Assembly: GCF_006517175.1 (NCBI RefSeq) | Contig: NZ_CP041186.1 | Coordinates: 6,103,074 to 6,167,073, forward strand | DNA length: 64,000 nt | Direction: 5' to 3' | Source: Persicimonas caeni | Lineage (GTDB): Bacteria > Myxococcota_A > Bradymonadia > Bradymonadales > Bradymonadaceae | Shown here: positions 11,082-56,417 of the stretch, one piece after another | How the letters are laid out: every line of letters begins with the position of its first letter | Position numbering within the stretch: position 1 is the stretch's first letter | Translations under genes and position numbers: made by a program | Notes under the pieces: model-generated | What the model saw: only the letters and a program-made list of their open reading frames with translations | Told to the model about the DNA's origin: nothing | The model's database searches: none

Positions 11082-11326
11082 GCGAGGGCAAGATGCCCCC
11101 GCACCGAAGGAACGTCGCGCGATGTATTCGGTGCGGGGGCATCTTGCCCTCGCCGAGGCTATCGGTGCGTGGGCATCTTGCCCTCGCCGAGACTTTCGGT
11201 GCGGGGGCATCTTGCCCTCGCCGAGACTTTCGGTGCGTGGGCATCTTGCCCTCGCCGAGGCTATGGGTGCGTGGGCATCTTGCCCTCGCCGAGACTTTCG
11301 GTGCGGGGGCATCTTGCCCTCGCCGA
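11082..11326. repeat. 34-bp hairpin repeat array (GGGCATCTTGCCC family) with one inverted copy
   Basis: Six head-to-tail units of exactly 34 bp run from 11129 to 11326 (the last truncated), each containing CGGTGCGGGGGCATCTTGCC or a one-base variant. One inverted copy sits at 11082-11107. The core GGGCA-TCT-TGCCC forms a 5-bp stem with a 3-nt loop in every unit. Unit tails alternate between GAGGCTAT and GAGACTTT. The stretch fills the 370-bp gap between the kinase-ATPase gene and the next secreted protein. Open frames through it (for example GHLALAE or CGGILPS repeats) are artefacts of the repeat. No unique spacers are present, so it is not CRISPR. Confidence 0.9.
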
Positions 11327-21655: not shown

Positions 21656-21851
21656 ATCGGTGCGGGGGCATCTTGCCCTCGAAATCGGTGCGGGGGCATC
21701 TTGCCCTCGAAATCGGTGCGGGGGCATCTTGCCCTCGAAATCGGTGCGGGGGCATCTTGCCCTCGAAATCGGTGCGGGGGCATCTTGCCCTCGAAATCGG
21801 TGCGGGGGCATCTTGCCCTCGAAATCGGTGCGGGGGCATCTTGCCCTCGAA
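21656..21851. repeat. Seven exact 28-bp hairpin repeats (GGGCATCTTGCCC family)
   Basis: Seven identical units of exactly 28 bp, each ATCGGTGCGGGGGCATCTTG followed by CCCTCGAA. Each carries the GGGCA-TCT-TGCCC stem-loop. The array begins 7 bp after the outer-membrane protein stop and ends 7 bp before the stop of the convergent SDR gene, so it occupies nearly the whole space between two gene ends. There are no unique spacers. The perfect identity of units implies recent amplification. Confidence 0.95.
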
Positions 21852-32141: not shown

Positions 32142-33107
32142 ATGGGTTACCCACTGCGAGAGCAAAAGGCGGACGCGTTCTACGACATCTGCAACCGTAC
32201 CCACCAGCAGTTCTACGGGCTGTTGCCCAGCGAGGAGGTCAACAAGATCATTCTGGGGCTGTTGGCCAAGTACGCCTGGATTTACGGCGTCGAGATCTTC
32301 GCGTTCTGCTTTATGAGCAACCACTTCCACATCATCGCGCGCTGCAAGTCGCTGCAGCTTCACCTGTTCATGCGTGACTTCCAGGCCCAACTCGCCAAGA
32401 AGATCAATGCGCTACGTGGACGCACCGGCACCTTTTGGGAACGTCGCTACACCGCCATCGAAATCTTGGACGACGACGCCATGATAGAGCGTTTGCGCTA
32501 TACGGTGTGCAATCCATCTGAGTCAGACCTGGTGCGTCACCCAAGGCTGTGGCCGGGGCTTTGCTCGTGGGATATCCACGACAACGGCGGCGAGCCGCTC
32601 TGGGGCGAGGTCGTCGACCGCGAGACGTACTGGCGTGAGAAGCGAAAAAAGAAGAACGAAGACAAGACCGAGGCCGAACTCATCGAGATGGCGACTGTGC
32701 GCTACCCGCTCGAGCTGGCCAAGCTCCCCAAGTGGGCCAACCTCGATGACGCTTCGTACCACGCGAAGGTGCGCAAGGAATGTCACGAGCACGCACGCCA
32801 CCTGCACGACAAGCGCGGCTTCAAGTGCCCCGGCCCCAAAAAGGTGCTCGCCAAGAAGTGGTGGCAGCGTCCCGTCCAACCAAAGAAGGCCCCGCGCCCG
32901 CTGTGCCACGGCGGCGACCTCGAGAAGCGTAAGGAGTATCGCGAGCAGCGCCGGGCAGTGACAAACGCTTACAAGAAAGCAGTAGGGAGGTGGCGCAAGG
33001 GAAAGACGAATATCGAGTTTCCCGAGGGGACCATTCCACCGGGTTACCAGTTTTGCTACGGGTGCAAGGCCCAGTTCAATATGACCGTGCCGCCCAAGCC
33101 AGCCTAG
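32142..33107 (+). CDS. REP-associated Y1 transposase (RAYT, IS200-like)
   Basis: Single-domain HUH nuclease of 321 residues. The metal-binding HUH motif is MSNHFHIIA (His61, His63), and the probable nucleophile is Tyr120 in RLRYTVCNP, the position of the catalytic Tyr in IS200/TnpA-REP proteins. GRTGTFWERRYTAI is another family signature. The second half (about 170-321) is a basic, Lys/Arg-rich region (REKRKKKNEDKTEAE, KKVLAKKWWQRP) longer than in typical RAYTs, ending in a Cys pair (CYGCKAQF). RAYTs cut and join single-stranded REP hairpins and are single-copy, domesticated-looking genes. CGGAGG lies 7 bp before ATG 32142. No IS200-type ends or accessory TnpB gene are visible. Confidence 0.9.
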   Translation: MGYPLREQKADAFYDICNRTHQQFYGLLPSEEVNKIILGLLAKYAWIYGVEIFAFCFMSNHFHIIARCKSLQLHLFMRDFQAQLAKKINALRGRTGTFWERRYTAIEILDDDAMIERLRYTVCNPSESDLVRHPRLWPGLCSWDIHDNGGEPLWGEVVDRETYWREKRKKKNEDKTEAELIEMATVRYPLELAKLPKWANLDDASYHAKVRKECHEHARHLHDKRGFKCPGPKKVLAKKWWQRPVQPKKAPRPLCHGGDLEKRKEYREQRRAVTNAYKKAVGRWRKGKTNIEFPEGTIPPGYQFCYGCKAQFNMTVPPKPA

Positions 33108-53060: not shown

Positions 53061-53354
53061 TCAGAATAACGAAGGTCTGATGTTGCGAAGCCCACTGAGC
53101 ACACGCACCACGTCGACCGACGTCTCAGCGATGCGATAGAAGATGACGTAGTTACGGAAAGGGAAGCTGCGCAGGCCGCGGACCAGGTCGTCTCGGCAGC
53201 GACCCATGCGAGGCGTATGTGTCAAAGCGAAACACCTGGAGTGAAGCGCATCGACGAAATCATCAGCGGCATTTGGATTGTCTGAGGCGATAAACGCCCA
53301 AATATCGATGAGATCGTGCTCGGCCGCAGGTGAGATGTTGAGGTCGAGAGTCAT
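53061..53354 (-). CDS. ParE/RelE family toxin
   Basis: 97-residue toxin of the ParE/RelE superfamily. LNISPAAEHDLIDIWAFIAS begins the fold; the diagnostic DLVRGLRSFPFRNYVIFYRI and VDVVRVLSGLRN close it, with the basic Arg residues in the usual C-terminal strand. ParE-type members poison DNA gyrase, RelE-type members cleave mRNA; RSFPFRNYVIFYR is more ParE-like. Its start overlaps the antitoxin stop by one base (TAATG), so translation is coupled. The pair sits between two 239-bp repeat blocks, which fits a mobile or accessory location. Confidence 0.92.
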   Translation of the reverse strand: MTLDLNISPAAEHDLIDIWAFIASDNPNAADDFVDALHSRCFALTHTPRMGRCRDDLVRGLRSFPFRNYVIFYRIAETSVDVVRVLSGLRNIRPSLF

Positions 53355-53623
53355 TAGGAGTTACGGTCGAGCTTCTCTCGGCCGGCACGTTTGATGTCGG
53401 CCACCGCAGACGAATCGAACGAGCGCCCCTCACCGCGGTCGAGTTGCTCGATGCCTTCCTCGAGTTCAGCGCGGAGTTCACGGCGCTGATTGTCGTATAG
53501 CTCCTCCTGGCGTTGCATCAGCCGCAGGGCTTCTCGGACGACCTCACTTTCTGAGGTGTACATCCCCGTCGCTAGGCGGTCTTGGACCCATTTTTCTAAT
53601 TCGGGGGTGAGTTTTACGTCCAT
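53354..53623 (-). CDS. ParD-like ribbon-helix-helix antitoxin
   Basis: 89-residue antitoxin partner of the downstream toxin. The N-terminal ribbon-helix-helix DNA-binding domain is MDVKLTPELEKWVQDRLATG, then YTSESEVVREALRLMQRQ, standard for the ParD/CopG family. The C-terminal half (ELEEGIEQLDRGEGRSFD) is acidic and would wrap around the toxin. ParD proteins repress their own promoter, here expected in the region 53624-53680, which is AT-rich (GTTGGTTGATAAATCAGC). Confidence 0.92.
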   Translation of the reverse strand: MDVKLTPELEKWVQDRLATGMYTSESEVVREALRLMQRQEELYDNQRRELRAELEEGIEQLDRGEGRSFDSSAVADIKRAGREKLDRNS

Positions 53624-54813: not shown

Positions 54814-55080
54814 ATGGCCGACTCTGAACAACCACGAAAGCTCGTCAAAGAAGCCGCGCCCCTGTGGAAACGCCTGCTGATCACGTTCTTCACCGCCATT
54901 CTCAGCGGACTGGTGCCCGGGCTAGGGCAGTTGATCAACCGGCACTGGATCAAGGGAGTCGTGATGGGCGTCTTGGGACTGCTGCTCTTTACGTCGATGC
55001 TGGGGTTTTTGGTCCGCTTTTTCGCCTACGTGGACGCCGCGAGCTGGGCATGGCAGCGCACTGGGGCGCAGTACGAGTGA
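54814..55080 (+). CDS. Small TM2-like membrane protein
   Basis: 88-residue inner-membrane protein. A polar N-terminus of about 18 residues leads to two hydrophobic helices: LLITFFTAILSGLVPGLGQL (about 21-40) and VVMGVLGLLLFTSMLGFLV (about 48-66), joined by the basic turn INRHWIKG. The SGLVPGLGQLINRHWIKG motif resembles the TM2/DUF5683-like domain in which a Pro-Gly-Gly/x-Gln turn precedes a Lys-Gly. Function unknown. It begins 4 bp after the preceding stop and so is coupled to the unknown 175-residue protein. A cloverleaf-forming sequence follows 22 bp after its stop. Confidence 0.8.
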   Translation: MADSEQPRKLVKEAAPLWKRLLITFFTAILSGLVPGLGQLINRHWIKGVVMGVLGLLLFTSMLGFLVRFFAYVDAASWAWQRTGAQYE

Positions 55081-55102: not shown

Positions 55103-55163
55103 CCTTAGGAGGCAGCGCATCTTGCGCTGGTAGCACCAGACCTGGAAGGTCTGCCTCCTAAGG
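55103..55163. repeat. Perfect DNA cloverleaf (outer stem plus three hairpins)
   Basis: CCTTAGGAGGCAG (55103-55115) pairs perfectly with 55151-55163. Inside the 35-nt interval three stem-loops follow without gaps: CGCA-TCT-TGCG (55116-55126, with a shared flanking pair), TGGT-AGC-ACCA (55128-55138) and GACCT-GGA-AGGTC (55139-55151). Each has a 3-nt loop. The result is a four-way junction with every base pair Watson-Crick. It lies between the small membrane protein gene and repeat copy E. It is not a tRNA: no acceptor CCA, T-loop or anticodon arm fits. Confidence 0.85.
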
Positions 55164-55183: not shown

Positions 55184-55452
55184 GCCTTGCAGGGCGGTCA
55201 CGCCAGCTAAATGGGGCGCCCTGAACAGCGGGCGTTAAGGACATAGGGGTTGCGTGGCGCGGCGTTTGGGTTGCTGCAGCCGGCAATGGAGCGCCCTCAG
55301 AAATCCAGGCGCCGCAACTCGCAGCCCTTTAGTCCTTAACGCGCGTAGTTCAGCGCGCCCCAAATAGATGGCGCTACATCTCAGCAAGGCGGCCGTCGAA
55401 GCCAAACGAGAGCAATCACGCGCTCGCACCCAGTCGCCAATCGCGTTATAAG
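55184..55452. repeat. 239-bp palindromic repeat, copy E with diverged tail
   Basis: A full repeat unit from 55184 to about 55390 with intact core (GGCGCGGCGTTTGGGTTGCT) and arms, followed by a diverged right-end tail (AACGAGAGCAATCACGCGCT, then TCGCCAATCGCGTTATAAG). The SDR gene starts 39 bp after the tail. Confidence 0.9.
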
Positions 55453-56331: not shown

Positions 56332-56417
56332 GAGGGCAAGATGCCCGCGCACGGAGCTAGCGAGGGCAAGATGCCCGCGCACGGAGCTAGCGAGGGCGAA
56401 GATGCCCGCGCACCGAT
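56332..56417. repeat. Three 30-bp hairpin repeats (GGGCATCTTGCCC family, reverse)
   Basis: Units of 30 bp starting at 56332, 56362 and 56392 contain GAGGGCAAGATGCCCGCGCAC, the complement of the core at 11.1 kb and 21.7 kb; the last has a one-base insertion (GGGCGAAGATGCCC). The spacer is GGAGCTAGC. They lie between the convergent stops of the SDR gene (56327) and the FAD oxidase gene (56420). Confidence 0.92.

Follow-up and report, generated by a model that had tools for sequence, protein, structure and literature searches.

At positions 55103-55163 of the 64,000-nucleotide stretch of the Persicimonas caeni genome analyzed here (the window, C1:6103074-6167073 of a host genome consisting of a single contig of 8,047,206 bases), 61 bp of DNA can be drawn as a perfect cloverleaf, which raises the question of what this element is and which protein might act on it. 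The structure proposed in the original prediction was confirmed when the sequence was checked. A fully paired 13-bp outer stem (CCTTAGGAGGCAG / CTGCCTCCTAAGG) encloses three gapless arms with 3-nt loops, all of them perfect: CGCA-TCT-TGCG, TGGT-AGC-ACCA, and GACCT-GGA-AGGTC. Such pairing is indeed unlikely by chance, since none of 200 shuffles folded as well as the 81-nt stretch around the element, either as DNA (z of −4.7) or as RNA (z of −3.5). The three CAG/CTG base pairs may be assigned to the side arms or, alternatively, to the outer stem, and in the minimum-energy DNA fold the element formed two hairpins of 7 bp each, leaving the middle arm open. Read in this way, it is composed of two inverted 22-nt REP-like units, with their heads outward and 7 nt between them, placed in the 3′ intergenic region of an 88-aa ORF:

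54814..55080, + strand: 88-aa ORF without a Pfam family, whose stop is 27 nt upstream of unit A (ORF and Pfam search).
55103..55107, + strand: left outer flank CCTTA, which pairs with the right-edge TAAGG (sequence).
55108..55129, + strand: REP unit A, with tag GGAG, a G, and the 7-bp hairpin CAGCGCA-TCT-TGCGCTG; GGAGGCAGCGCATCTTGCGCTG (sequence; 196 related genome units).
55130..55136, no strand: spacer GTAGCAC, which together with the unit tails makes up the non-conserved middle arm TGGT-AGC-ACCA (doublet comparison).
55137..55158, − strand: REP unit B, inverted, with tag GGAG, a G, and the 7-bp hairpin CAGACCT-TCC-AGGTCTG; GGAGGCAGACCTTCCAGGTCTG (sequence).
55159..55163, no strand: right outer flank TAAGG, which pairs with 55103-55107 (sequence).

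The 61-mer gave 52 BLAST matches in the host genome, at unrelated loci. By using a pattern in which the variable stem positions were left free, 196 units were detected in this genome compared to none in the reversed control, and the doublet pattern revealed at least 49 inverted doublets, again with none in the control; tandem arrays of units were present too. The spans of 50 doublets were 47-58 nt (17 doublets), 68-71 nt (32, mostly 70 nt), and 78 nt (1). The tag was highly uniform (G in 160, G in 163, A in 162, and G in 164 of 164 units, in a selection that tolerated one head mismatch), the loop was TCN, and of the 89 distinct flanks of doublets, 87 had a T at position −2 from the tag and 66 had one at −3. 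This dispersal largely refutes a gene-specific regulator. Because the RNA fold is stable and lies between two genes of the same direction, the element might be suspected to be an intrinsic terminator or to regulate the downstream SDR gene as a structured RNA; however, no U-tract follows the element, which makes the terminator guessed at in the original prediction unlikely as an intrinsic one, and no Rfam family matched anywhere in the window, where a tRNA/tmRNA scan was negative as well. We regard this explanation as highly improbable.

Three stem pairs had been left unconstrained by the search pattern and thus provided a fair test of covariation. In 155 units these pairs were Watson-Crick in 95, 97, and 96% of cases, where base frequencies would predict 36, 58, and 59%. 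Among 31 distinct units, 94.5% of cells were paired, and changes on both sides of a pair amounted to 35, against 13.4 in shuffles (0 of 500 reached the observed value) and 1-9 in slid controls. This strong covariation indicates that the hairpin is maintained unit by unit, and both checks suggested at the outset, for other copies and for covariation in the arms, were therefore positive. The family displays the features of REPs, i.e., a short palindromic hairpin with compensatory stem changes, many dispersed and mostly extragenic copies, and a conserved tetranucleotide at the 5′ foot, and the inversion of two REPs at preferred distances is that of a REPIN or BIME. However, canonical REPs are defined by a GT[AG]G tag (PMC6006769, PMC3686654), whereas the tag was GGAG both in the host and in a second genus described below.

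The middle arm was considered as a conserved third hairpin and rejected: it was open in the minimum-energy DNA fold, and at most 2 bp were possible in 12 of the 17 short doublets. The spacer GTAGCAC was found only in the window copy of the doublets, and the long doublets contain a different middle, usually of 26 nt. The cloverleaf's third arm arises as a by-product where two GG/CC tails face each other across a chance spacer, and what really recurs is the pair of side hairpins with their inverted GGAGGC feet. Hence, the elaborate three-arm unit initially envisaged is not supported.

In a first search with Pfam PF01797, 26 Y1_Tnp loci were retrieved from the host genome, none of them with units of the GGAGGC-type family within 1.5 kb. 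RAYT-A (C1:3489459-3490109, GTG start, 216 aa), located 2.7 Mb from the window doublet, fell below that Pfam cut-off and was found only with the NCBIfam NF047646 REP-associated transposase model (match C1:3489732-3490043), with a score of 71.1 bits that is itself below the curated cut-off of 80. Arrays of its own REP family lie on either side of the gene: upstream, 11 A units that match the pattern are accompanied by two B units in inverted orientation, and downstream there are additional A units along with five inverted B units. The motifs of the Y1 HUH core, HUH (SHAH rather than NHxH), W (LWQA), and Tyr (YVWRNP), are intact in RAYT-A and conserved among its relatives. A direct PDB search with RAYT-A alone gave no match and a profile was needed; the profile of RAYT-A and its relatives matched PDB 4er8, the E. 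coli TnpAREP, with an E value of 1.2e-7. The same entry, a RAYT-REP complex, was the top Foldseek match of the AlphaFold model of RAYT-A (mean pLDDT of 89), above the ISDra2 and IS608 transposases. Judging from sequence, the doublets almost certainly depend on RAYT-A, a predicted single-strand-cutting transposase.

The most abundant Y1 protein of the host genome is a different one, an about 320-aa RAYT-like protein belonging to a 17-copy family with a 321-aa member in the window itself (32142-33107), and mobilization by these proteins instead of RAYT-A would be the alternative. Seventeen copies are an unusual number for RAYTs. That no GGAGGC-type REP hairpin occurred within 1.5 kb of the Y1 loci first examined argues against this alternative, as do the ACGGTGTC[AT]GACACC palindromes that flank most members instead; we consider it very unlikely indeed. 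A further RAYT-like gene (C1:4722880-4723515; L067:2881-3516) is flanked by long GC-rich repeats with CTGCGGCCGGGAGACCGCAG, and may belong to another REP set.

Genome G008, from a second genus and very probably Bradymonas sediminis, encodes a RAYT 52% identical to RAYT-A, flanked by arrays of GGAGCCAGACCATCTTGGTCTGG (GGAGC-CAGACCATCTTGGTCTGG; GGAG-C-[CAGACCA-TCT-TGGTCTG]), and 111 units of the GGAG-C-[CAGACCA-TCT-TGGTCTG] form were counted in that genome. Tag, tag-stem distance, TCN loop, and even one arm type are common to both genera. In the G008 RAYT (L115:1519-2121), THIH replaces NHxH and the ORF ends earlier than in RAYT-A; the search reported two internal stops in its alignment, yet the frame read open. 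The RAYTs of other relatives likewise had repeated hairpins in their flanks, with stems of 7-8 bp and of the kind seen in the GGAG units; the feet of these hairpins, as read by eye, were GGAG (L117, L121, L122, and L131), GGTG (L126), GTAG (L116 and L130), and GTGG (L130). That class-level relatives carry the canonical GT[AG]G in the corresponding position supports GGAG as the guide tag. Beyond these genomes, the strict A-type pattern gave seven single matches in unrelated phyla over a collection of named genomes, which were treated as chance, and a looser pattern gave a few scattered matches in each of 94 other genomes, with mostly non-complementary arms and at a level like that of the reversed control. 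Collectively, the 196 units, their covariation, a RAYT flanked by the same units, and the orthologous set in a second genus bear out a REP-like element associated with an HUH transposase, whose recognition of the units is putative.

It had also been suggested that the TCT loop of the first arm is common to the GGGCATCTTGCCC arrays of the window. This link is real but indirect, as those arrays are a sister REP family, distinct from that of the window doublet, that belongs to RAYT-B (C1:5453047-5453793). RAYT-B is a 62% identical paralogue of RAYT-A and is flanked by GGTGCGNGGGCATCTTGCCCTCG units, of which the host genome holds 400 copies at no more than 1 mismatch and G008 none. In the window, repeat searches placed this family as follows:

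11086..11319, no strand: sister REP family array GGTGCGNGGGCATCTTGCCCTCG, of paralogous RAYT-B.
21666..21846, + strand: sister REP family array GGTGCGNGGGCATCTTGCCCTCG.
56334..56376, − strand: sister REP family, at least 2 units, inverted.

Compared to known systems, the doublets resemble the REPINs of Pseudomonas fluorescens SBW25 (PMC3116915) in being inverted, dispersed, and RAYT-linked, with heads outward and a span of about 70 nt. They differ in that SBW25 REPINs carry the GT[AG]G tag and are described as symmetric, forming one long hairpin, whereas here the tag is GGAG and the arms are unlike and fold separately. Doublets of two different REP subtypes are known from the Y-Z1 and Y-Z2 BIMEs of E. 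coli, where a single RAYT, TnpAREP, is also flanked by its own REPs (PMC8266576, PDB 4ER8, the best match of the RAYT-A model) and where the REP is cut but the inverted REP is not (PMC8266576). Unlike E. coli REPs, the units described here have a shorter stem without a bulge as well as the GGAG tag, and RAYT-A displays SHAH / WQ / YVWRNP in place of the DHLH / WE / YIHYNP of subclass 2.2. The short perfect stem, short loop, and tag 0-2 nt from the stem are like those of the subclass 2.5 REPs of Stenotrophomonas and Pseudomonas, which differ in their GT[AG]G tag and in the motifs DH[LF]H / WQ / YI[VI]ANP (PMC6006769, PMC3686654). The GTAG and CGTC palindromic repeat superfamilies (PMC3733652) likewise bear a tag at one foot, have stems of 6-9 bp in which alternative arm residues remain complementary, and occur as singletons, HH dimers, and clusters; their tags, however, are GTAG or CGTC with variants, and the string GGAG is absent from the text of that paper.

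Genomic placement of the 50 doublets was determined with a home-made dicodon gene caller, and the resulting numbers are therefore crude: 21 lay in tandem, 13 in convergent, and 4 in divergent gaps, 3 were inside ORFs, 3 overlapped an ORF end, and 6 were unclassified, so that divergent gaps account for 4 of 38 classified intergenic doublets. For many doublets, the distance to the end of a called ORF was about 30 nt or less. REPs usually lie outside genes and away from shared promoters, and the trend observed here is alike. For E. coli REPs, 3′-end roles such as mRNA stabilization, attenuation, and gyrase or nucleoid binding have been described, and the units might similarly have been spread once by RAYT-A and now be immobile, domesticated 3′-end elements of the host. 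The strong RNA fold, the proximity to ORF ends (the window doublet begins 27 nt past a stop codon), and the scarcity in divergent gaps would all fit such a role. The same location bias, however, would also arise if insertions into genes and promoters were selected against, the gene caller behind the placement is crude, and the unit arrays around the RAYT gene together with the lineage-specific amplification favor a transposase, so that we consider domestication unlikely, though clearly less so than the alternatives discussed above.

Other features were noted around the element. An imperfect palindrome of 207 nt at window positions 55184-55390 belongs to a family with seven copies in the window (also at about 48518, 52068, 52307, 52546, 52785, and 53927). 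Genome-wide, about twenty nearly complete copies of 71-95% identity were counted, and some copies are arranged in tandem at intervals of about 239 nt. On the − strand, two small adjoining ORFs (53061-53623) resemble by eye a ParD/ParE-type antitoxin-toxin pair.

The two units of a doublet were almost never alike. Unlike arms were found in 49 of 50 doublets (mostly CGC, ACC, or GGC; the inner pair is T-A or A-T), and the single like pair compares to a mean of 10.4 when units were reshuffled among doublets (P = 1e-4). When each distinct unit pair was counted once, values were 1 of 27 against 4.4 (P = 0.04). At the variable arm positions, pairing within units was 96%, compared to an identity between units of 35%. 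As a consequence of their unlike arms, those heterotypic doublets for which a fold was computed gave two separate hairpins and not the one long hairpin of a REPIN, which was formed by the sole homotypic doublet (−32.5 kcal/mol). The 34 doublets counted by eye among the matches listed for the second genus were all heterotypic as well, many being tandem copies from few loci that represent about six independent cases. Amplification by descent of two or three founder doublets could be a partial source of this heterotypy. Some doublets had longer repeated flanks in common, and no empty sites or insertion polymorphism were found among the flanks of the loci examined.

The dispersed family, its covariation and doublet architecture, a RAYT flanked by the units, the orthologous pair in a second genus, and the intact catalytic motifs are established by the sequence. 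The window element is very probably a REP doublet (REPIN, BIME unit), a non-autonomous passenger of RAYT-A, which together with its flanking units would constitute a REPtron. Counting against this reading are the GGAG tag, the NF047646 score below the cut-off, the SHAH motif, and the negative search for empty sites. As to how RAYT-A would bind, cut, and move the doublets, and what heterotypy would contribute, we infer the following. When the locus becomes single-stranded, e.g., on the lagging strand, each unit would fold into its own 7-bp TCN-loop hairpin. By analogy with the biochemistry of TnpAREP and of IS200/IS605 (PMC8266576), RAYT-A, through its HUH and Tyr residues, would read, on one strand, the tag together with the hairpin, and nick beside them. 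The doublet would then be excised or copied and re-inserted elsewhere, mostly outside genes. Owing to their different arms, the two hairpins of a doublet would be unable to pair mutually, and each would stay available as a recognition hairpin.

REP-RAYT systems are of a known kind. New here is the host group, as no description of a REP-RAYT set in bradymonads was found in the literature searched; the non-canonical GGAG tag and the strongly heterotypic doublets are unusual. We propose, as a tentative possibility, a bradymonad rule of heterotypy by which the hairpins of a doublet must differ, giving two recognition hairpins in a minimal cloverleaf, together with a GGAG guide tag in place of GT[AG]G in a RAYT lineage that has changed its tag between relatives. 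More speculatively, by analogy, heterotypy might mark which unit the RAYT reads. These data provide a complete bradymonad REP-RAYT set. Its heterotypic doublets separate two folds, a pair of small hairpins and one long hairpin, that look the same in symmetric REPINs, and make the question of which fold is the substrate of the RAYT directly testable. The related RAYTs, whose tags are GGAG, GGTG, GTAG, or GTGG, offer a natural series in which the reading of the guide tetranucleotide by the enzyme can be tested.
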